From a virus, in IMG/VR virus record IMGVR_UViG_3300048800_000013, positions 1 through 40,108 of that record: 40,108 nt of DNA. The stretch is one strand, 5' to 3'. The position numbers and the translations under genes are program-made. Below, piece after piece: positions 3,120 to 40,098 of the stretch. The notes below the pieces were generated by a model. That model was not told the origin of the DNA. It saw nothing but the letters and a program-made list of their open reading frames with translations, and did not search any database. Numbering within the stretch: the first letter of the stretch is position 1; each line of letters opens with the position of its first letter.

Positions 3120-4526
3120 CTATGGTGGCCAGTTGCCCCCGTGAGGTCGATTCGGGCCAGAGGGAGGCCACGGTGGGGGAGCTAGCCAGTTGACGCCGTC
3201 GATCAGGCGATTGGTGATGGTGGGGTCTGGGCCGGTGCTAGTGGAGGCGCCAACCACCCCAGCAGCCGCGATTGTGGAGGTGACGGGGACAGTCGCGCCG
3301 GAGGCCACGATGGCCGAACCGGAGGCCACGATGGTAGTGGTCGCCGGGACGCTTGCGGTGGCACTGACACCGACCACGCCGGCGGCGGTGACGGCATCGT
3401 TGGTTAGTACGGTTGCACCAGCGGAGCGGCCCACTACACCAGCGACGGTGATGGCATCGCTGACCGGGACGGCGGCTCCGGTCGCGGGACTACTGCCCGA
3501 GGCGTTCCCGGCGGTGGTGACGGTGGCAGTAATGGGCGCACTGGCGCCGCTGGAGACACCAACTACCCCAGCGGCCGAGATTGTGGCAGTAATGGGCGCA
3601 CTGGCGCCGCTGGAGACACCAACTACCCCAGCGGCCGAGATTGTGGCAGTAAGAGGAGCGCTGGCGTCAGTAGAGACACCTGCTGCGCCACCCACGCTGA
3701 TGGCCGCAGCCAGAGCAAGCAGCGCTCCGGTGAGCACGCCTACCGCGCCGGCAGTGACGCCTGTTGCGGTAACCGGCGCGGTAGCGCCACTGGCGGCGCC
3801 CACTGCTCCGGCAGTGGTGATGGTATCGGCGACAGGGGCGCTGGCGTCAGTAGAAAGAGCGCCGCCTGTGGCGGCCAGGAAGGTGACGACGCCCGCGAGC
3901 CATGCCTGCGAGGCCAGGGTTGCACTGAACGTCTCGGCGACTGCGCTGCCCAGGATGCCATCGAACGTCGAGAGGCCCGACTTCTGGCCGGTCAGGGTGT
4001 CGTCAGCGAAGGTCTCTGTGGTCGAGGAGGTGAGAGTGGTGGAGAACGTCGGCGACGTGGCACGCGCGTTGCCGTTATGGGAGGCGAAGCCGACGCAGAA
4101 GGTGTTGGCCGTGGTCGTCGCACTGGCACCGGAGTTCGGGGCTGTGCTGGTACCGGTGGCGGTCTTCTTCTGGTCAATGAAGGTGGCCGTGTCCTGGCCC
4201 GACACCTCGATGACGGTGCAGCAAGGGGTGACGGTTGACGCTGAGAACGTCGGGGTGATCGTCAGCGAGCCACCTGTCCCGACGTTCTTGCAGTACCAAA
4301 CGTCGAACATCTGGTTGCCGTTGGCGAGCGACAACCCAGACCACTTGGTGTAGGTATTGTGGGTGTCCGAGACGCCCGTGACCGTGGGCGCCGACCCTGA
4401 TCCTCTCGCCGCGCAAATGACGATCAGGCCGTTACCGACGCCCACCCCGGCCAGGGTGACCGGGGCAGTCGCTTGGGCTGCAGTTAGTGTGCCACTGCCA
4501 CCTGACTGTACTCTGGCAATCGCCAC
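3120..4526 (-). CDS. Repetitive, low-complexity virion surface protein
   Basis: This protein has 468 residues and a GTG start. The first ~220 residues form a non-repetitive beta-rich domain (VTLAGVGVGNGLIVICAARG; DTHNTYTKWSGLSLANGNQM) like phage or secreted domains that bind surfaces. The rest consists of about ten imperfect 20-residue repeats built on ASAPITATISAAGVVGVSSG, rich in Ala, Val, Thr, Ser and Gly, with a Pro-rich tail (APPPWPPSGPNRP). At DNA level two repeat units are identical. The pattern suggests an extended beta-strand stalk or adhesin-like fibre. Its place among fibre-like genes supports a host-contact role. Copy number probably varies. Confidence 0.6.
   Translation of the reverse strand: MAIARVQSGGSGTLTAAQATAPVTLAGVGVGNGLIVICAARGSGSAPTVTGVSDTHNTYTKWSGLSLANGNQMFDVWYCKNVGTGGSLTITPTFSASTVTPCCTVIEVSGQDTATFIDQKKTATGTSTAPNSGASATTTANTFCVGFASHNGNARATSPTFSTTLTSSTTETFADDTLTGQKSGLSTFDGILGSAVAETFSATLASQAWLAGVVTFLAATGGALSTDASAPVADTITTAGAVGAASGATAPVTATGVTAGAVGVLTGALLALAAAISVGGAAGVSTDASAPLTATISAAGVVGVSSGASAPITATISAAGVVGVSSGASAPITATVTTAGNASGSSPATGAAVPVSDAITVAGVVGRSAGATVLTNDAVTAAGVVGVSATASVPATTTIVASGSAIVASGATVPVTSTIAAAGVVGASTSTGPDPTITNRLIDGVNWLAPPPWPPSGPNRPHGGNWPP
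3523..3652 (-). repeat. Perfect 60-bp tandem repeat inside the surface-protein gene
   Basis: Bases 3523-3592 and 3583-3652 are identical, a 60-bp period (20 codons) over 70 bp. The surrounding units are diverged versions of the same period from about 3240 to 3870. A recent duplication or slippage event is the simplest explanation. Confidence 0.9.
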
Positions 4527-7322: not shown

Positions 7323-7352
7323 TATCTAGTGTCCCAACGCACAGGTTGTCCA
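7323..7352 (-). promoter_or_regulatory. Putative leftward promoter
   Basis: On the minus strand TGGACA (7352-7347) and TAGATA (7328-7323) are separated by 18 bp. Transcription would start near 7316 and read into the zinc-ribbon chain. The -35 overlaps the DnaA-like box. Confidence 0.4.
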
Positions 7353-7354: not shown

Positions 7355-7561
7355 GGTGGTGGCAACATCCGTTCGGTTGACGCGGTCACGGGGAATAGTG
7401 CAGAGTGGGGAAGTTTGCGCGCAGGGGGGTTGCGGAACTCGCCGGGTAGGCGCATAGTGGCCCCACGCATGAAAGAGGCTGGCGACGTGGTAAGCGTCCC
7501 AGCCCATGGCCAGGAGGTTGAGTCCCGACGTGCAGCACTCTAAAGCATACGGCGACACGGT

Positions 7562-7567
7562 ACAATC
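7562..7567 (+). promoter_or_regulatory. Candidate rightward -10 box
   Basis: TACAAT lies about 35 bp before the ATG of the HNH gene at 7602. No good -35 is seen 16-18 bp upstream, so this is weak. Confidence 0.25.
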
Positions 7568-7601
7568 CGCGTCCCTCCAGGGCGCTCGGTCTAACGAGAA
7601 T

Positions 7602-8075
7602 ATGCATTCGCAGAACTCCCTTCTGGAAGTTTTGCGAGCGCATAGTGTTTCCGAGCGCGCAGAGAGCGGGCGGAAGTACACCCCCGAACAGCGTCGAATC
7701 AACGCAGAGATCACCAAGCGGTGGCGTGAGACGCACCCGGATTACAACAAGGCTAACAACGCACGCCTACGCGCCGAACGTCACGGGGTTGGCGGAAGTT
7801 GGACGCCGGAGCAGAAGGCGGCTCGTTGGGCGATGTGGGGCAACCGGTGCTGGATGTGCGGTGACCCAGCCACCTGTGTCGACCACGTCAAGCCGCTGAG
7901 CAAAGGCGGCTCGAACTGGCCGGCCAACCTTCGGCCTGCGTGCACGGACTGTAACGCCTGGAAGTTTACGCGCTGGCCTCTGCCCGCATGGTTCGTCACC
8001 GCGACCTTCCCGGTCACAGAGTTCTACGAACCCACCGTGCCGCTTGGACAAGGCGTCCTGGCCCTCCCCGCATGA
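7602..8075 (+). CDS. HNH endonuclease
   Basis: This protein has 157 residues. The C-terminal half has the classic HNH signature: CWMCGDPATCVDHVKPLSKG, then NWPANLRPACTDCNAW. The CxxC pairs hold a structural zinc, and the DH...N...H-type core carries out metal-dependent DNA cleavage. The N-terminal half (YTPEQRRINAEITKRWRETH) is a basic helical DNA-contact region. The frame is open upstream to 7506, but ATG 7602 follows the candidate promoter and gives the conserved length. Its stop overlaps the next gene. It may be a free-standing homing nuclease or a packaging-associated HNH; its place far from terL favours the former. Confidence 0.85.
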   Translation: MHSQNSLLEVLRAHSVSERAESGRKYTPEQRRINAEITKRWRETHPDYNKANNARLRAERHGVGGSWTPEQKAARWAMWGNRCWMCGDPATCVDHVKPLSKGGSNWPANLRPACTDCNAWKFTRWPLPAWFVTATFPVTEFYEPTVPLGQGVLALPA

Positions 8076-8449
8076 CCGCCCTCCAAACCGCCGGGGCTGC
8101 CCTTCCCTCCAGGGGCGCCCCGGCTTCGATTGACACATGCGTCTGCGGACACCCCGCGGACAGTCACGGACACCGCAGCGCACTTTGCTTCCAGTGGACC
8201 GTTGACAGGTTCTGCACCTGCCTCCAGTGGGCACCTCCGCGTCGCCCCACGCTGGTGGCGACGCAGTACCGAGCGCGTTGCACCAAGTGCTTGGCAATAG
8301 CACACGAGGCCACCGGCAGACCCTTCGCCCGGATTCACGCCAAAGGGGGGCCGTGGCGAAACGGTACGCGGCTGTGGGACCGGGCCAGCGTGGACGAAGA
8401 CGTCCGCGTCTATGTCATCTGCCGTGATTGCCTCGGACTGAGCCGATGA
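8072..8449 (+). CDS. Cys/His-rich zinc-binding protein (125 aa)
   Basis: ATG 8072 overlaps the HNH stop (ATGA). The N-terminal module CVCGHPADSHGH followed by CFQW and FCTCLQW is a recurring actinophage zinc motif. The C-terminal module has CTKC and a later CRDC. Two zinc sites are likely. No enzymatic domain is seen; nucleic-acid or protein binding is the usual assumption. Coupled to a membrane microprotein downstream. Confidence 0.6.
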   Translation: MTALQTAGAALPSRGAPASIDTCVCGHPADSHGHRSALCFQWTVDRFCTCLQWAPPRRPTLVATQYRARCTKCLAIAHEATGRPFARIHAKGGPWRNGTRLWDRASVDEDVRVYVICRDCLGLSR

Positions 8450-8541
8450 GCGAGCGTCAGATCGGGGTGGCCATTGTGGCGATGGGTGTTCTGGTCTTCG
8501 CATATATCGTGTGGCTCGTCGTCAAGGCGTACCTCGGATGA
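8446..8541 (+). CDS. Small membrane protein (31 aa)
   Basis: Starts with ATGA overlapping the previous stop and ends with ATGA overlapping the next start. The product is one hydrophobic helix (IGVAIVAMGVLVFAYIVWLV) flanked by MSERQ and KAYLG. Function unknown. Confidence 0.55.
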   Translation: MSERQIGVAIVAMGVLVFAYIVWLVVKAYLG

Positions 8542-9017
8542 TCAGGCCCCGCTCCACCCGCCAGAAGGGCTGGGAGTACTGCACCGTCTGCGGTGAGGGG
8601 AGGGATCTGCGGGGCAACAAGGCGCGCAAGACGGGGATGTGTATCACCTGTCTGCGAGCCAACCCGCCGGAGTTGACAGCGCCGTACCTCTGCACGCTGT
8701 GTGGGGACACGGAGCCTTCGCATTTTGCGAAGAAGGGCCGGGCGCGCTGTACCACCTGCATCAACAAGGTGCACAGCGATTGGGCCAAGGTGGAACGGCG
8801 CCAACTCAACGCCATCTTCGCTGCGCTGACCGCCTGCGATGAGGGGGTGGGCGGGTGCGGGCTCAAGGACAGTCACGTCGTTGACGGGCTCTGCGCGGTG
8901 TGCCGTGAGGAGATGCGGCGGGGCAGGCGCTGGGTCTTCGACAAGGATGATCTGGAGAGGTGGTTGGCTCACGTCGCCAAGCTGGAGCAGTGTGCTCGCG
9001 TGGCGGTGGCCGCATGA
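8538..9017 (+). CDS. Multi-zinc-finger protein (159 aa)
   Basis: At least four cysteine pairs are visible: CTVCGEG, CITC, CTLCGDTEPSHF with CTTC, and a late CAVC. The knuckles pair as two or three ribbons. The C-terminal end is helical (DKDDLERWLAHVAKLEQ). It directly precedes the replication initiator with an ATGA overlap, so a role in replication, such as DNA or helicase binding, is plausible but inferred from position. Confidence 0.6.
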   Translation: MIRPRSTRQKGWEYCTVCGEGRDLRGNKARKTGMCITCLRANPPELTAPYLCTLCGDTEPSHFAKKGRARCTTCINKVHSDWAKVERRQLNAIFAALTACDEGVGGCGLKDSHVVDGLCAVCREEMRRGRRWVFDKDDLERWLAHVAKLEQCARVAVAA

Positions 9018-9799
9018 GGGAATGGGTGCGGCTCTACACGTCGAGCTGGGGGCACCGGAAGATGCTGCCCCTGTCGCTGGAGGCCCACGGGTTGTGGGCT
9101 GCCGGGCTGGCCTACGCGGGCAGCCAGGAGCGGGAGGACTTTGTGCCCGAATCCTTCGTCATGCGCGTAACGCGTTACGGGTGTGACAACGAAAACGACC
9201 CGGAGAAAAGCAGGCCCGAAGAGCTGGTAAAGACCGGACTATGGGAGCCAGTCGAGGGTGGGTGGCTCATCCACAACCATGAGCTACGCCAGAGTGACGA
9301 GGAGGCCCGTAAGGAGGCGAATCGTATTCGGCAGCAGCGCTACCGGGAGGCGCGTAACGCCCCGCGTAACGCCAGTCACAGTGACAGTAACGCTTCCGTA
9401 ACGCCTGTCACGCGTCTAGAGAAGAGAAGAGTAGAGAAGAGTAGAGAAGATAAGTCACCTAACGGTGACTCTGTGGCGCGCAGGGTGTTCGAGGTCTGGC
9501 AAGTGGAGACCAACCACCCTCAGGCGCGGTTGCTTCCCTCGCGGTTCAAGCTCATTGCAGCCCGGATGCGCGAGGGACTCAGCGAGAGCGACCTGACTGA
9601 CTGTGCGCGCGGGGTGCCGCTCGATCCGTGGCCCGACCGAGTGCTCCACAACAGTTTCGAGATCGTGTTCAGGAGTGCCGCCAACGTGGAGAAGTTCCGC
9701 GACTTCTACCGCAATGGCGTGCCCGCGCTCGCACTGGTGCCCAACCGCCACGACGCCATCACTGCCCGTATCGGTGTGTTTGGAGACTTCCCAGCATGA
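9014..9799 (+). CDS. Replication initiator / replisome organiser (lambda O or SPP1 gp38-like)
   Basis: This protein has 261 residues. The N-terminal ~95 residues (MREWVRLYTSSWGHRKMLPL ... GGWLIHNHELRQSDEEARKE) form a winged-helix-like DNA-binding domain typical of phage replication organisers. A hydrophilic Asn/Ser/Thr linker (about residues 113-150) is encoded by the repeat-rich DNA described separately. The C-terminal domain (RRVFEVWQVETNHPQARLLP ... LSESDLTDCARGVPLDPWPD) is the recruiter-type module seen in such proteins. By analogy with lambda O and SPP1 gp38 it should bind an origin in its own gene and load the host helicase. No phage helicase or polymerase is present, consistent with host dependence. 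Confidence 0.7.
   Translation: MREWVRLYTSSWGHRKMLPLSLEAHGLWAAGLAYAGSQEREDFVPESFVMRVTRYGCDNENDPEKSRPEELVKTGLWEPVEGGWLIHNHELRQSDEEARKEANRIRQQRYREARNAPRNASHSDSNASVTPVTRLEKRRVEKSREDKSPNGDSVARRVFEVWQVETNHPQARLLPSRFKLIAARMREGLSESDLTDCARGVPLDPWPDRVLHNSFEIVFRSAANVEKFRDFYRNGVPALALVPNRHDAITARIGVFGDFPA
9165..9470 (+). other. Candidate replication origin inside the initiator gene
   Basis: Four GTAACGC copies lie at 9354, 9366, 9387 and 9398, and a perfect 14-bp palindrome CGTAACGCGTTACG at 9166-9179 carries the same core in both orientations. GTCAC/GTGAC inverted pairs lie at 9375-9385 and 9453-9470. A homopurine run of repeated GTAGAGAAGA units fills about 9419-9450, locally lower in GC. Iterons plus an easily opened tract inside an initiator gene match the lambda and SPP1 arrangement. 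Confidence 0.55.
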
Positions 9800-10284
9800 C
9801 CACAATGGCGCCTCCCGAGAACGTCGTCATGGCCTTCCGCTTCGCTCACTGCCTGTGGCCAGACGACGCCAAGACAGCCAGCCAGGGGACGCTGATCGCT
9901 TGGGCTCCGATGCTCTCGCCGTACTCGATCGACGAGTTGTACCACTCGCTAACCACGCTGGCCAAAGCAATGACAAGGATGCCGGCGCTGGCCGTGTGGC
10001 TCGACGAGTTGCACGCCGCGCGACGCAAGGACGCACCTCCGCCGCTGTTCCTCCCGGCACCAGCTCGAGGCCAGATCACCGGCCCCGACGATGTGTACCG
10101 CGACAAACTCCGCAAGGACGTCCGCCGGTTCCTGCGCCAGCCTGACGGCTCGATCGACCCAGAGCGGCTGGCCGAGATGGATGCATGGGTGGACGAGGTT
10201 GGCCCGCACGAGGCTGCGTTCTTGAAGCGCCACGGAATCGACGTTGAGGTGACCCAGCCGGTGAGGAAGGGTGGGGGGATATGA
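9796..10284 (+). CDS. Unknown replication-linked protein, possible G39P-like helicase-loader partner
   Basis: This protein has 162 residues and is coupled to the initiator by ATGA. The N-terminal ~75 residues (ENVVMAFRFAHCLWPDDAKT, then W, then SIDELYHSLTTLAKAMTRMP, AVWLDEL) follow the pattern of the SPP1 gp39 or small helicase-loader-inhibitor domain: helix, aromatic-Pro, long helix pair. The C-terminal half is charged (VYRDKLRKDVRRFLRQPDGS). Gene order initiator-then-loader is as in SPP1. This is inference from order and pattern, not a firm family match. Confidence 0.45.
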   Translation: MTTMAPPENVVMAFRFAHCLWPDDAKTASQGTLIAWAPMLSPYSIDELYHSLTTLAKAMTRMPALAVWLDELHAARRKDAPPPLFLPAPARGQITGPDDVYRDKLRKDVRRFLRQPDGSIDPERLAEMDAWVDEVGPHEAAFLKRHGIDVEVTQPVRKGGGI

Positions 10285-10511
10285 GCGAGCCGTTCCTCGA
10301 CGACGAAGGGCGCCCGTTGGCATGGGCTGAGTTCTTCGCCAGGACGGAGGCGTGGCTGGATGAGATCTATCCCGTCGATCTCTTCGGCACCGCTGACCGC
10401 CTGCTGTGCGCTGACCGCTCCGGTGTGGACATCAGCACCGGGTACGGTCCTGCGGCTGTTCGCGCCCTGCGTGCAGCCGTCGCGCTGGCCCGCAAAGAGG
10501 ACCCGCTGTGA
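10281..10511 (+). CDS. Small acidic unknown protein (76 aa)
   Basis: Starts at an ATGA overlap and ends at a GTGA overlap. An acidic helical protein (WAEFFARTEAWLDEIYPVDL) with a second helix (AAVRALRAAVALARKE). No cysteines or membrane segment. Not recognised; lies in the replication operon. Confidence 0.6.
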   Translation: MSEPFLDDEGRPLAWAEFFARTEAWLDEIYPVDLFGTADRLLCADRSGVDISTGYGPAAVRALRAAVALARKEDPL

Positions 10512-12932: not shown

Positions 12933-13771
12933 CTACGCACGCAACGAAGGAGGTCGCAAACGCGGTGGGGGGGAACGATGGTGCAGCCGTCTCCTCCCCA
13001 CCGCCGACTCCCTGGGAGAAGCTCCGTGCGCCGTTCCCAGAGAACAGGATCGGCCACCTTCCACCCACGCCGAAGCGGCCAGTGGAGTTGTCTTACGTCG
13101 GCCACGCTGACGTCACCGACAGGTTGCTCTCCGTCGACCCATTCTGGAACTGGAGGCCGCTGGCCTTTCGTGAGGACGGCATGCCACGGTTTGTGGTGGA
13201 TGAGCACGATCACCCCATCGGGTTGTGGATCGAGTTGACCGTACACATCACAGAGAAGCCCTCGGGGATCTTCGATGGATGGCCCGCCGTCACCCGCCTC
13301 GGCTACGGCTCCGTCACCTCAACTGCCTTCGACCCCGAGAAGCAACTCATCGGTGATGCACTCCGCAACGCCGCCATGAGATTCGGCGTGGGCTTGGACT
13401 TGTGGCGCAAGGAGGAGCAGCCCGCAGAGAACGCCTCTACGGTCACCGCAGAGGTCAAGCGGGTGTTCAGCCAGCCAGTTGTGCCGGCGGCGGTACAGAC
13501 GATGACAGCGCCATCTGGTGGCAAAGGCAAGGTGCCGTGTGCGTTGTGCGCTGCCGACGACATGAAGAGCAAGAAGGGATACCCGTCGGTCTTCTGGCCA
13601 GACAGTAAGACGTGCGACGGTGGGTGGAAGGATGCCGATGACGGCTGGCACTACGTCAACCATCCGCTGGTGCGTGAGCCGCAGTTGTCCGGTGTCGGTG
13701 CAGCGGTGAGTGCAGAGGCAGACCGGGTGCCTATCGAACTTTACGACGACGGCGGCTCGGTGTCGGTCTGA
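12929..13771 (+). CDS. Rad52/Sak-like single-strand annealing protein
   Basis: This protein has 280 residues. The core (LSYVGHADVTDRLLSVDPFW, then WRPL, GLWIELTVHI, VTRLGYGSVTS, and IGDALRNAAMRFGVGLDLWR) matches the conserved strand-helix-helix layout of phage annealing proteins of the Rad52/Sak group. These coat ssDNA and pair complementary strands. The C-terminal third is separate: CALCAAD followed later by SKTCDGGW looks like a zinc-binding domain. Starts at an ATGA overlap. With the Gam-like protein and the junction resolvase it forms a recombination set; no partner exonuclease was found. Confidence 0.75.
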   Translation: MTTHATKEVANAVGGNDGAAVSSPPPTPWEKLRAPFPENRIGHLPPTPKRPVELSYVGHADVTDRLLSVDPFWNWRPLAFREDGMPRFVVDEHDHPIGLWIELTVHITEKPSGIFDGWPAVTRLGYGSVTSTAFDPEKQLIGDALRNAAMRFGVGLDLWRKEEQPAENASTVTAEVKRVFSQPVVPAAVQTMTAPSGGKGKVPCALCAADDMKSKKGYPSVFWPDSKTCDGGWKDADDGWHYVNHPLVREPQLSGVGAAVSAEADRVPIELYDDGGSVSV

Positions 13772-14220
13772 TGCCCGGTCCGAGGAACACGCCGGATAGG
13801 TTCTGGTCGCACGTCGACCGCAGCGCGGGGGAGGCCGCCTGTTGGCCGTGGACCAGCACGCTGAGCAGCACCGGTTACGGCAAGGTCACATGGCACCAGG
13901 TGCAGTACAAGGCCCATCGGATCGCTTGGTTTCTGACTTATGGCGAGATGCCGAGGCAGACCATCGACCATCTCTGTCGCAATCCTCTCTGCTGTAACCC
14001 GTCACACATGGAGGATGTCCCCAACGGGGTCAACGTCCTACGCGGACGCGGGCCGTCGGCCCTCAACCTGCTGGTTACCCACTGCCCCAGGGGTCACGCA
14101 TACGATGAAGCCAACACATCCGTCCGGATATCTGCGCGTGGCCGGGTTTCCCGAAAGTGCCGGGCCTGTGAGGCGGCACGCCAGCGTGAACTAAGGGCGA
14201 GAGTGAGGGCTGTAGCATGA
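13771..14220 (+). CDS. HNH_3-type homing endonuclease
   Basis: This protein has 149 residues. N-terminal RFWSHVDRSAGEAACWPWTS and GYGKVTW, then AHRIAWFLTYGEMP, then the HNH core TIDHLCRNPLCCNPSHMEDV, and a C-terminal zinc module (CPRGHAYD ... CRACEAARQR). The CPRGH plus CRACE tail is typical of complete HNH_3 phage enzymes. ATG overlaps the annealing-protein TGA (TGATG). It sits between the annealing protein and Gam-like genes, so it may have invaded the recombination operon. Confidence 0.85.
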   Translation: MPGPRNTPDRFWSHVDRSAGEAACWPWTSTLSSTGYGKVTWHQVQYKAHRIAWFLTYGEMPRQTIDHLCRNPLCCNPSHMEDVPNGVNVLRGRGPSALNLLVTHCPRGHAYDEANTSVRISARGRVSRKCRACEAARQRELRARVRAVA

Positions 14221-16025: not shown

Positions 16026-16225
16026 GCGGGCAGGACCGAGCGATGGCATCGGCGAGACTGAGTACCGCCATCAAGCACCTAGGCAACGCCGAGGATCGCA
16101 TCAACGAGGCCATCTTCTATGCGCTCCCGGAGCCGGGGTTCTCATATGACGGCGAGAAGATCATCGTGGTGCTGGCCCACGCAGTGAGGGAACTCACTGC
16201 CCTTCAGAAGACGTTGAAGCCATGA
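16022..16225 (+). CDS. Small helical unknown protein (67 aa)
   Basis: ATG 16022 overlaps the upstream stop. Two helices (ARLSTAIKHLGNAEDRINEA; DGEKIIVVLAHAVRELTALQ) joined by a turn. Its TGA overlaps the HNH start. Not recognised; absent from the first copy of the duplicated segment. Confidence 0.55.
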   Translation: MSGQDRAMASARLSTAIKHLGNAEDRINEAIFYALPEPGFSYDGEKIIVVLAHAVRELTALQKTLKP

Positions 16226-16632
16226 CCCCAAGTCTCCCCCGTCGTCTCCCACAGCGTGGGCCAGTAGCCGAGAGGTGGCAACGCCACCAGGACGACAGCC
16301 GCTATGCCGTCTTCCTCCGCAGCAAGGGAAAGTGCGAGGTAGGCGACTGCTTCGAGGAGGCGCGGGACTGGCATCACCTCTTCCCGCGCAGGGGAACAAA
16401 CATCGGGGAGCCATGGGTCAGCTCGCCCGCCATGTGCTTGGCGATGTGTCGGCCGCACCACAACGCCATCCACCGCCACGACGATCCCGACTGGCGCGAC
16501 CGATTGAGATGGCAGGGATTGGTACGGCTCTGTCAGGAGGAGGCCATCCCCTTGACCATACTCAGAGACTACGACCCCGAGGGAGCCGCTGGAGTCCTCG
16601 AGGGTTTGCTGCGTGGGAGAATGGGGGAATGA
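16222..16632 (+). CDS. HNH-family nuclease
   Basis: This protein has 136 residues. KGKCEVGDCFEEARDWHHLF, then PAMCLAMCRPHHNAIHRH form an HNH core: zinc-binding cysteines around a DWHH strand and a final HHNAIH helix. It is a different HNH subgroup from the HNH_3 enzymes here and resembles those that may act on phage or host DNA during packaging or repair. Its 5' end is duplicated at 15491. ATGA overlap with the upstream gene. Confidence 0.7.
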   Translation: MTPSLPRRLPQRGPVAERWQRHQDDSRYAVFLRSKGKCEVGDCFEEARDWHHLFPRRGTNIGEPWVSSPAMCLAMCRPHHNAIHRHDDPDWRDRLRWQGLVRLCQEEAIPLTILRDYDPEGAAGVLEGLLRGRMGE

Positions 16633-18411: not shown

Positions 18412-20721
18412 TCACCCGAAGGCCCCGAAGGGATCCGCGGCGGTAGCGGCAGCCCCGAGCAGGGACAGTCCGAAGCTCTCCTCGATGGCTCGCAGCGTCC
18501 CGTAGGTACCACCCAGCGTGGCGTTGTGGCCTCCGCCCTTGGCGTTATTGGAGATCACCACCATCGGGATGGCGTTGGTACTGCCAGCGTCACCCTCGTC
18601 CATGGAGATCACCACGGTGCTGTTGAAATTTAGGAACCAGGCTGAATTTAGTACCGGGGCTATGTTGGTCTTGAGCCACGCGTCACCCTGAGCAACGCTG
18701 CCGTCATGCATGTCGTCAGTGAGGTTCGGCGTGATCCAGACGAAGCTCGGCGCGCTCGGTCCGGTGAGGGCTGCGACCGCGCCACTGGTGCCTGGGTAGG
18801 GGACGTCATGGGCAGCGCAGTCGGTCAGTCCACTGCTCGAAGCGAAGGGGTTGTGCTTGAGCACGAAACTCTTGTTGCAGGCTCCTGGCATGGACTCGAT
18901 CCATGCGGCCCACGGCACATGCGCACCGTCGAGTTGCATCCCGAGGCTGGTCGCGCTGAACGGCCCACAGGTGTCTGACGTGCAGCCCTGGGTGCTCCCC
19001 GAGGTGATCGCGTAGTAGTTCGGCTGGCTGGGATGGGTGACCCCGTGCCAGTTCGTGAAGGAGGTATATGCTGCTGCCAGTGAACAGAGGTACGGATCCG
19101 CCGAGCAAGTGCCCAGCGTCGCCAGCAGTCCTTTGTTCTCCTCTTGGATGTACATGACGTGAGGAGTGCCTGATCCCAGAGTCGGTGTGGGAGTTGGTGG
19201 GACCGTCGGAGACGGGGTGGGAGTTGGTGTCGGTGTACCGCTCTGCGACGGCGACTGTGATGGAGTGGGCGTCGGACAGGGGCTTGACGACGCTGTTGGC
19301 GTCGGGGGCACCGTCGGAGTTGGCGTTGCTGTCGGCACCGTCGTCGGACTGGCCGTGGGAGTGGCAGTTGGAGTTGGAGCGACGGTCGGCGGATCCACGA
19401 AGTCGTCATCTGGATCATCGGAGCCAACGCTTCCGCTGTCAGGATCGAACGCAGGAGTAGCGGCTGTAAGCCTCGCCGCTGTCAGGCACGAGGTTGCCAA
19501 CGGTGCAGCGAGAGGCTGCCGTGGCGTCCCACCGCCGCCGATGTTGTTCGGCCCGTTGTTGTCTACGACCGCCAGACTTCTGATGATCGTCTGAACATCG
19601 TTCGCCCAGCCTGCCCCTGTGGCTCCGCTCGTGGCCAGAGGGAAGCCCCAGTCACTCTGGAACTGTGCCGCAGTGTTGGCGTCACCCTGTTCTGTGTTCA
19701 GTGCGAAGACGCTCTGCGCTGAGTCGTTGGCAACGTAACCGCCGTAGTCTTGGAGGGTCCGACACAGTTCTGCGCCTGCCAAGCCCAATGAGCCGCAGTT
19801 GAAAGAGGGAGGGACTGCGAGGAGGGCACCCATCGAAAGCTGGGGGACGGAGCCCCCCGGAGAGTAGGCATAGCTATCCTTCTTTGTTGCAGGCCAGCGG
19901 AAGCCAGGACTGGATGGTGTGCAGTCTTGTGGGCAGTCGATGTTGACGCGCAAGGCATGGGGCACTTCAACCTTGCCGGGGGCGATCTCACCGGGGCGAA
20001 TCAGGCCGCCGAGAGTCGAGAGCTTCGAGCCGCCTGCACCACCAGTCAGCCCGTCTCCGAACAGGGTGCCGTAGGTGGCCACATGGCCCGCGGTGGCGGG
20101 ACCTCCGGCACTACAGCGAGCGAACGCTCCACCCTCGTCGATTGTCTGCCCATCGCTCTTGATGATCGCGAAGCCGTTGTTGTGGTTCGAGGCCGGCACC
20201 ACCAGGGCGGCGGGTACTGGATCGTTCGCCAGATTCCCGCTACCTGAGCACGTGTTGCTGTGTTGACCCCCGTTTTGTTGGATAGCCGTGAGCGGGCTGG
20301 AGGGATCTTGGATGACGACTGTCTGGTCAGTGGTGACCGCCTTCTGCGTGAGAGGCTTCATCCCGCTGGCCACATAGACGGCGCTGGAGCCGATGGGCTG
20401 GTTCCAGATCGACGTCGAGGTGAACGGCTGGGCGAAGGGATCGCGGCTGCCGGCACTCTGTGGAGAGCTGCCAGGGATGCCGGTGTGGACGAACTGCCCC
20501 GTGAAGAAGCCGAGCATGCCAGCGATCACCACCGCAGCGATGGACTTCCAACCGACCGTGGTGGTGAAGTTATTGACCACGTTCCCCGGCGTCTTGACGG
20601 CGGCGTGGTCCGCTGCTGCCTGGGCGTGATCCGCGGCAGCCTGCGCCATGTCGGCCGCGGCCTGTCCGTAGGGGACGGCAGGGAGGTTGCCGGGATCTGG
20701 GGGTGGTGCCGGGAACGTCAT
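18412..20721 (-). CDS. Membrane-anchored two-domain protein with acid-phosphatase/phospholipase-C-type phosphoesterase
   Basis: This protein has 769 residues. Ala-rich coiled start (residues 20-45), one transmembrane segment (59-75, [17 protein letters not shown]), then an extracellular-type domain (97-430, beginning [12 protein letters not shown], with several cysteines), a Pro/Thr linker (445-515) and a C-terminal domain (520-769). The last shows [23 protein letters not shown], a late DDMHDGS and a DEGD, the layout of the PF04185-type phosphoesterase family. That family cleaves phosphate esters, including phospholipids. It lies between holin-like genes and the end of the late operon. It probably acts outside the cytoplasmic membrane in envelope disruption or entry. 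This fusion is unusual for a phage. Confidence 0.7.
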
Positions 20722-38630: not shown

Positions 38631-39199
38631 CACGCCAACCCGCTGAGGTTGCCGCCCCAGTGGTTCCAGATCCACGTCCGCTCGGGGAGGTGGACGAACT
38701 TCGCGCCGGCATCGAGCAGGCGCAGCCACAGACCCCAGTCCTCACACGTCGGGTTTGGCCATGCGTCTGTGCCGGGCTCTGGAAAGCCGCCGACGGCAAG
38801 AACGGCCTCCGTCCGCACCAGGACGGTGACGGGGATGTAGTTGGCTAGGCGAACGGCTTCGGCATCGAAGGGCACGCCCTCCCGGCCTAGTGGATCACTG
38901 CCGCCCTGGACGTCGAACCACGGGTACACGAGGTCCGCGTGACAGTTCTCGGCAGTGGAGAGCAGCCGCTCGATGTGGAGCGGTCGCCAGAGATCGTCGT
39001 CGTCGAGAAAGGCTGTCCACTCGCAGTCCACAGCCTCGAGGGCTCGGTTGCGGGTGGCTGGCGCTCCAAGGTGCTCGTGGTCGATCGCCACGCTGATCTG
39101 ATCGACAGGCCGGGTCTGGTTGGCCACGGAGGCCAAAGCCTCGACGAGCCTGTCGGCTCTCGGCGGGATCGAGGGAATGACCGCCGCGACCGTGGTCAC
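38627..39199 (-). CDS. Family-2 glycosyltransferase
   Basis: This protein has 190 residues. GTG 39199 overlaps the protease stop (GTGA). VAAVIPSIPPRADRLVEALA, ATRNRALEAVDCEWTAFLDD with FLDDDDLWRP (the metal/UDP-sugar DxD site) and a C-terminal CEDWGLWLRLLDAGAKFVHL (catalytic ED-W region). Soluble GT-A fold. First gene of the glycosylation island directly behind the prohead protease. Confidence 0.9.
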   Translation of the reverse strand: MTTVAAVIPSIPPRADRLVEALASVANQTRPVDQISVAIDHEHLGAPATRNRALEAVDCEWTAFLDDDDLWRPLHIERLLSTAENCHADLVYPWFDVQGGSDPLGREGVPFDAEAVRLANYIPVTVLVRTEAVLAVGGFPEPGTDAWPNPTCEDWGLWLRLLDAGAKFVHLPERTWIWNHWGGNLSGLAW

Positions 39200-40098
39200 G
39201 CGATGTCGGCGAGCAACCTTCGGGCGTCTGCTTCGTCGATGGCGTCGTGTTCTGCCTCGGTCTTGCCCGACGCCGGCAGTTTGGCCCCGCACTGGTCGCA
39301 GAACTTGGCGTCAGGCTCGTTCATCTTCCCGCAGGACGGACACTTGACCGTCTCGCCAGGCTTGGCGGAGTAGGGGGCGCGGCCGTCTGAGGTGATCTCG
39401 CCGTCCCGCTTCGCAGCTCGAGGCATCATGCCCGAGTGGGCGTGAGTACCACTGATGTCCCCAACGTGGGAGTGACTGATCGATCCGTCGCCTGACTGCT
39501 TGGCGTGGGAGTGCATGGAGCGCAGATCCGGCGAATCCACCGCCCTGCCGACGATGGTCAGCGCCTGCTCGAGGGTGAGTTCGCCGGCTTCGAGGGAGCG
39601 GGCGATACCGAGGAACTCGGTCGGCATGACCCCACGACTGCCCACCAGCTTCACGCCAGGGACGGCGCCACGCAGGACGATGCTGTTCTCGTCGAGGTCC
39701 GCCTCGTGATAGTCACGAACGCCCTCAAGACCATCACCTGCGGCAGGTTCGTCCTTGCCGTGGGAGAAGCCGAACGAGGCGTCCGTGACTGTTCCGGAGT
39801 GGTACTGAGCCCATGCCTGACGGGCGCGAGGGACGGCCTCGAAGTCGTCGAGCTGGTAGAGGGTGCGGAGCGACTTATCCGAGTCCGTGTAGTCCACGAG
39901 CGAGCCAATCGGCTCCTTCCAGTCATGCGCCCAGCAGAGCGGCGGCTTGCGGAGCTCCAGCGAGCGCGTCCACACACCAGGGCGGAACCGGGTGTTGTAG
40001 TCGTCCACCACGTTGTAGACGGTCGACTCGATCTCGAGCTGGTGCTTGGAGGTGTCGGTCACCTTGACCCGACTGGATGGGACGGAGCGGTATTCCAC
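39196..40098 (-). CDS. HK97-type prohead protease with C-terminal His cluster and zinc ribbon
   Basis: This protein has 300 residues. The first ~150 residues match the S78 family: ESTVYNVVDDYNTRFRPGVW, CWAHDWKEPIGS with His58, and SGTVTDASFGFSHG with Ser108 as probable nucleophile. Residues 195-222 carry HSH, SHSH and HAH clusters, and 253-271 a zinc ribbon (CPSCGKMNEPDAKFCDQCG). The extra C-terminus is unusual and may act as scaffold or metal site. GTG 40098 is the track start; the frame is open to the window edge, so the true start could lie outside. Downstream it is coupled to a glycosyltransferase. Confidence 0.85.
   Translation of the reverse strand: MEYRSVPSSRVKVTDTSKHQLEIESTVYNVVDDYNTRFRPGVWTRSLELRKPPLCWAHDWKEPIGSLVDYTDSDKSLRTLYQLDDFEAVPRARQAWAQYHSGTVTDASFGFSHGKDEPAAGDGLEGVRDYHEADLDENSIVLRGAVPGVKLVGSRGVMPTEFLGIARSLEAGELTLEQALTIVGRAVDSPDLRSMHSHAKQSGDGSISHSHVGDISGTHAHSGMMPRAAKRDGEITSDGRAPYSAKPGETVKCPSCGKMNEPDAKFCDQCGAKLPASGKTEAEHDAIDEADARRLLADIA

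Follow-up and report, generated by a model that had tools for sequence, protein, structure and literature searches.

In phage lambda the replication origin lies inside gene O, where iterons are followed by a melting region (PMC6022878, PMC7466680). In phage SPP1, oriL lies in gene 38 and combines direct repeats bound by the initiator with an AT-rich unwinding element (PMC6316719). The window analysed here, a complete virus contig of 40,108 bp, carries a locus that resembles lambda, and also the Stx phages, in having dyad iterons and an adjacent unwinding region in the middle of an initiator gene. We propose that positions 9353-9470, together with an outlying palindrome at 9166-9179, form the replication origin of this phage, of the lambda/SPP1 type and within its own initiator gene; we put the probability of this reading at about 0.85. 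The segment 9353-9470 is so read because the gene encodes an initiator homologue, repeats are clustered in it, the least stable stretch of duplex adjoins them, and both position and DNA are conserved. The features are as follows.

9014..9799, plus strand: predicted replication initiator gene (ATG 9014, stop 9799, 261 aa)
Residues 9-86 of its product: predicted winged-helix N-domain (helices and strands), then a long helix at 90-115
Residues ~116-153 of its product: disordered linker, then a helical C-domain at 154-233
9166..9179, no strand assigned: outlying site, a perfect palindrome of 14 bp (CGTAACGCGTTACG) made of two iteron cores that overlap
9353..9360, plus strand: iteron 1, CGTAACGC, read CGT AAC GC (Arg-Asn-Ala)
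9365..9379, plus strand: iteron 2, CGTAACGCCAGTCAC, a 15-mer that recurs at 9397 with 93% identity
9375..9385, no strand assigned: perfect palindrome GTCACAGTGAC between iterons 2 and 3
9387..9393, plus strand: iteron 3, GTAACGC, preceded by A instead of C
9397..9411, plus strand: iteron 4, CGTAACGCCTGTCAC, in the other reading frame (GTA ACG, Val-Thr)
9417..9454, plus strand: pentamer-periodic purine tract TAGAGAAGAGAAGAGTAGAGAAGAGTAGAGAAGATAAG, proposed unwinding element
9453..9470, no strand assigned: hairpin AGTCACC-TAAC-GGTGACT (7-bp), directly 3' of the tract

Against the PHROG profiles, the 261-aa protein matches phrog_2447 (E 2.9e-16, residues 4-148, covering the N-domain) and, as a second profile, phrog_3926 (E 2.2e-13). 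Both are replication initiation families, and on these matches the protein is a replication initiator homologue, in agreement with the original prediction of a replication-organiser-like protein. Lambda O itself is not among the phrog_2447/phrog_3926 initiators matched by the N-domain. The C-domain matches an O-like protein in a search of a phage collection (E 7e-8), and residues 156-252 are 36% identical to the 'replication protein O' of Flyfo siphovirus Tbat2_3. In the AlphaFold model (38 sequences, mean pLDDT 68) the predicted fold of the N-domain is winged-helix-like, and the linker falls below 50-60. The PDB gave no significant match to the initiator, either by sequence or by fold comparison. 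A homologous initiator on plasmids, as expected of an iteron-plasmid replicon of the RepA/TrfA type, was not found among 72,556 plasmids.

The early region around the initiator encodes a RusA-like resolvase, a RecT-like annealing protein and HNH endonucleases, three HNH endonuclease-like genes being located at 7506-8075, 13771-14220 and 16222-16632. No PHROG profile matches the following gene, 9796-10284, which also does not resemble the gene beside Tbat2_3 O, and no helicase, loader (P-like) or polymerase gene was recognised near the initiator. The structural genes that were scanned lie on the minus strand. Among the minus-strand genes, 18412-20721 encodes a minor tail protein whose linker is PTPTPT-rich and whose C-terminal part looks phosphoesterase-like by eye, and the product of 39196-40098 is a prohead protease to which a zinc-ribbon-like segment, CPSCGK...CDQCG, is added at the C-terminus. 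A 60-bp tandem repeat of 2.6 copies (3523-3680) is located inside the minus-strand ORF 3120-4526, whose product is Ala/Ser/Thr-rich and repetitive.

The heptamer GTAACGC occurs 10 times in the contig against 2.2 expected, and six of the ten copies are inside the initiator gene, between 9167 and 9404. Four of them start at 9354, 9366, 9387 and 9398, i.e. four copies in 51 bp as originally noted. Their spacings of 12, 21 and 11 bp correspond to about whole helical turns, but it should be mentioned that the four-copy array is imperfectly regular and the iteron short. The remaining two copies are the opposite strands of the upstream palindrome at 9166-9179, which was also correctly predicted. This palindrome encodes residues 51-55, within the folded N-domain; the earlier statement that all the elements lie in the linker thus holds for the four clustered repeats (codons 114-131, at the start of the disordered linker) and for the purine tract, but not for the palindrome. 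The inverted GTCAC/GTGAC pairs are real as well (9375/9381, 9407 and within 9453-9470), and the paired copies build the palindrome at 9375-9385 and the hairpin. The GTCAC word is not enriched contig-wide (144 versus 131 expected).

Such repeats could be a protein-level feature, arising when a low-complexity hydrophilic linker is duplicated by slippage, with no origin function. Low-complexity linkers are common, the present one is disordered in the model, and two of the four iterons form an exact 12-bp tandem, all of which would suit slippage. However, GTAACGC is read in two frames, and in the palindrome on both strands. The copies also exceed what the protein demands: when the gene's own synonymous codons were shuffled with the protein fixed, the mean was 1.2 GTAACGC and only 2 of 20,000 shuffles reached 6, and when codons were redrawn from the phage usage the mean was 0.6, with a maximum of 4 in 3,000. 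In 20 Markov-simulated 40-kb sequences, no 7-mer exceeded 3 copies per 60 nt. The iterons are spelled with the rare codons GTA and CGT, GTA accounting for 5% of the phage's valine codons. The 5-nt period of the neighbouring tract is also out of step with codons.

The repeated purine tract noted originally is (AGAGA)n, with 7.4 copies at 9418-9454, corresponding to codons 135-147 in the disordered part of the model. The initiator gene has 32 arginine codons, and AGA is used for all three in the tract and for none of the 29 elsewhere. The use of two frames by the iterons, the rare codons at the repeats and the confinement of AGA to the tract support the suggestion, made in the original prediction, that the DNA repeats dictate the composition of the linker. 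The contig's most purine-rich 36-mers start at 9418/9419. The segment 9414-9473 is the least stable 60-bp duplex among the ~40,000 windows of the contig, with a nearest-neighbour energy of -75.5 compared to a contig mean of -94.9 (sd 3.8); this ranking considers duplex energies only. The hairpin folds as DNA with -6.4 kcal/mol (z -2.9), and the order along the gene is iterons, then purine tract, then hairpin. The GC-skew check suggested earlier did not bear the candidate out, as no turning point was found there. A single DnaA box, TTGTCCACA at 7346, is present in the contig, which is no excess, and there is accordingly no DnaA site beside the candidate origin.

Initiators can repress their own genes, and the iterons could be operator sites for autoregulation by the initiator, or for another regulator, with the true origin elsewhere. 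The inverted repeats are operator-like, and the palindrome at 9166-9179 is separate from the main array. However, a scan for sigma-70-like promoters, that promoter type alone, found none in 8400-10400, and the gene starts 340-390 bp upstream of the sites. The least stable stretch next to them and its conservation suit an origin better. We consider it very unlikely that these are operators, and rejected the operator-only reading on the lack of a sigma-70-like promoter in 8400-10400, the depth of the sites in the gene and the conserved unstable stretch.

With the window protein alone as query, the locus scans gave no confirmed relative. Relatives were obtained only when an alignment served as query, giving related N-domains in 50 viral loci and 3 genome loci, the closest being ~25-38% identical. 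The Gordonia phages StorminNorm (L007) and Leonardvirus (L012, L013) have GTAAC/GTTAC dyads in the corresponding linker. In L028, L035 and L038, CGTAACGCCGTTAC-type repeats follow immediately 3' of the N-domain and a stop codon falls within the first repeat (CCG TAA CGC CGT TAC...), so that the later repeats and a C-tract are not translated. L043 has repeats extending across the stop codon, and short cluster-G-like homologues have GCAATGC-type repeats just 3' of the stop. Since repeats and tract are kept outside the coding frame in these relatives, it is the DNA that is conserved and not the linker protein; the repeats of L028/L035/L038 and L043 are the clearest evidence of this. Repeat conservation in relatives had been named beforehand as a test of the prediction, and the repeats are kept even where untranslated. 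Slippage would not account for them, and as the sole cause of the repeats it is largely refuted by the frames, the shuffles and these untranslated copies; we regard it as highly improbable.

In 17 of the 43 N-domain relatives, no 350-nt span of the locus is less stable than the one that follows the N-domain. The actinophage relatives mostly have a C-rich tract with a 5-nt period there (CCCGA, CCCGT, CCCTT, CCCAT), and the pattern C3N2C3N2C3 is found in 27/43 relatives compared to 10/684 background blocks; the window has the purine tract instead. In L007, L012, L032, L040, L048, L056, L058, L061, L063 and others, the C-rich tracts lie on the coding strand at ~codons 120-160 of the initiator and encode 'RPDPTRPDP' linkers. 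Their opposite strand reads GGGNN x3-4, a G-quadruplex motif. A G-quadruplex reading, considered for these relatives, is inapplicable to the purine tract of the window, in which GGG runs are absent. It is noted that TCACCT, present at 9454-9459 of the window shortly 3' of the tract, is similarly placed in 12 of the 43 N-domain relatives (L007, L009, L012, L015, L037, L056 and L064 among them), the background frequency being 48 of 684 blocks. In L028 (402-620), L035 and L038 the region of iterons and C-tract is bracketed by DnaA boxes of consensus sequence (TGTGGATAA), which are not found near the window's candidate origin.

No DNA-level relatives of 9340-9480 were found among named phages. The pattern CGTAACGC-NNN-CGTAACG occurs in at least 120 viral contigs, compared to 75 for a permuted control pattern. 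Among the matches listed, many ORFs with the iteron pattern belong to replication initiation, DnaD-like loader, primosomal or replisome organizer and helicase-loader families, with 19/81 in the top family. Five of the 55 control ORFs match phrog_2447, and the presence of the control pattern in initiators too indicates that the linkers of initiators are rich in repeats of many different words. Thirty-six GTAACGC-iteron initiators were picked by eye from the ORFs of the matches listed. In these the unwinding region is located downstream of the iterons, with a median stability percentile of 0.10 versus 0.53 upstream, and a percentile of 0.05 or less is reached in 16 downstream and in 1 upstream. 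AGA-rich tracts are found in 17 of the 36, compared to 3 of 1,681 background blocks, and AGR accounts for 35/80 arginine codons after the iterons versus 124/629 elsewhere.

A search with the window's own tract, TAGAGAAGAGNAGAGNAGAGAAGAG, gave at least 120 contigs and at least 104 distinct loci, whereas a permuted pentamer gave 10 contigs. At least 104 distinct viral loci share a 25-mer of the tract exactly, and almost all of them are within initiator linkers. Since these loci were chosen by the tract itself, its conservation among them is by construction, and the informative points are its location, its reading frames and how seldom the control occurs. Among the matches listed, 75 of 102 tract ORFs belong to one replication-initiation family, the tract falls at ~residue 105-220 of mostly 200-350-aa ORFs, and it is read in two open frames (83 and 21 loci), the third frame containing a stop. 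Occurrence in both open frames again argues against slippage of a protein repeat. Upstream of the tract the sequences vary (GTNAC types, GTTGAAC types and others). The purine tract is more widely conserved than the iterons, and was under-read in the original prediction. All 10 permuted-pentamer matches are linkers of initiator-like ORFs, from translations read by eye, which suggests that short-period purine tracts in general mark such linkers. This permuted pentamer, (AGGAA)n in L381-L390 with linkers such as VGKERKGKEQGKE, is a second tract class, seen only in initiator-like linkers.

A hairpin lies within 65 nt 3' of the tract in 28 of the 103 listed tract loci, with 7 expected, and the window's hairpin core, CACCTAACGGTG, is present in one of the 28. 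The minus strand of the window reads GAGTCACCGTTAGGTGACTT ATCTTCTCTA, which has been called terminator-like, and the hairpin with the pyrimidine strand of the tract could accordingly be a terminator for minus-strand transcription, leaving the tract without a replication role. However, its T residues are interspersed with C, which sets it apart from a strong intrinsic terminator; in the other 75 of the 103 listed loci the tract is kept without a hairpin, and the iterons would be left unexplained. A terminator appears extremely unlikely.

At the level of DNA, repeats and, with them, a special tract are retained at the corresponding place in relatives of the window initiator and in unrelated initiators alike. 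The candidate intragenic origin of the original prediction gains support from this in-place conservation and from the repeats' adjoining what is calculated to be the contig's least stable duplex. We propose that the winged-helix N-domain, probably as dimers, would bind the iterons, and that the resulting nucleoprotein complex would strain the (AGAGA)n tract next to them and open it. The helicase loader or the helicase would then be received by the strand so exposed and by the helical C-domain, and theta replication would begin. The linker sequence (RNAPRNASHSDSNASVTPVTRLEKRRVEKSREDK) would be largely a by-product of the DNA signal.

The lambda-type layout is already known. A nucleotide-conserved, pentamer-periodic purine tract common to dissimilar initiators was not found described in the open-access literature searched, which is weak evidence of novelty. 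We tentatively raise the possibility, at somewhat less than even odds, that the tract is a portable second origin element, independent of the iterons and melted or recognised by a mechanism common across phages of very different hosts. If so, the initiator linkers of dsDNA phages would be largely a non-protein code, consisting of an iteron, a strand-asymmetric tract of short period (AGAGA or AGGAA, in actinophages CCCGA) and often a hairpin, and origins could therefore be found genome-wide by the tract alone. To our knowledge, the origins of nearly all phages are unmapped. If the layout holds, an origin could be read from the initiator gene by two independent signs: a repeat that is spelled in at least two reading frames, and a tract, either purine or C-rich, of short period. 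The odd 'REEKRREEK' and 'RPDPTRPDP' linkers would then be explained as DNA signals and not as protein features, and it would become directly testable whether different initiators can use one common melting tract.

We have compared the locus with the described systems. As in lambda, the repeats lie between the DNA-binding and C-terminal domains (iteron codons 114-131), there are several iterons with dyad symmetry (four GTAACGC, and the palindromes 9166-9179 and 9375-9385), and an easily unwound region, 9414-9473, is adjacent. The window differs from lambda in having short GTAACGC cores in place of 18-bp iterons, in its pentamer-periodic purine tract within a 64% G+C genome where lambda has a plain A+T-rich element, and in having no recognisable P gene. 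With SPP1 oriL it shares only the layout of repeats and unwinding element in an initiator gene; the second origin of SPP1, oriR, has no counterpart seen in the window.

Gene O of Tbat2_3 (L008) is unrelated to the window's in N-domain and iteron sequence, yet shares the 36% identical C-terminal domain and has three TCCCC-AAAAAT-GGGGA iterons at the corresponding place of its own linker. The RepA-like initiators of StorminNorm and Leonardvirus have C-domains that are not alignable with the window's and a downstream tract that is (CCCGA)n where the window has (AGAGA)n, the coding strand being the C-rich one; they share the related N-domain and the dyads in the corresponding linker. Isolates with the window's layout include Escherichia phage vB_EcoS-673R7, in its 'replication protein O' (L391), and Pseudomonas phage VW-6S (L393). 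Their N-domains are of another family (DWIK...), with low protein similarity to the window's, and a helicase-loader gene adjoins the initiator in both. In the linkers of both, GTAAC/GTTAC-type dyads are directly followed by an AGAGAAGAG-type purine tract.
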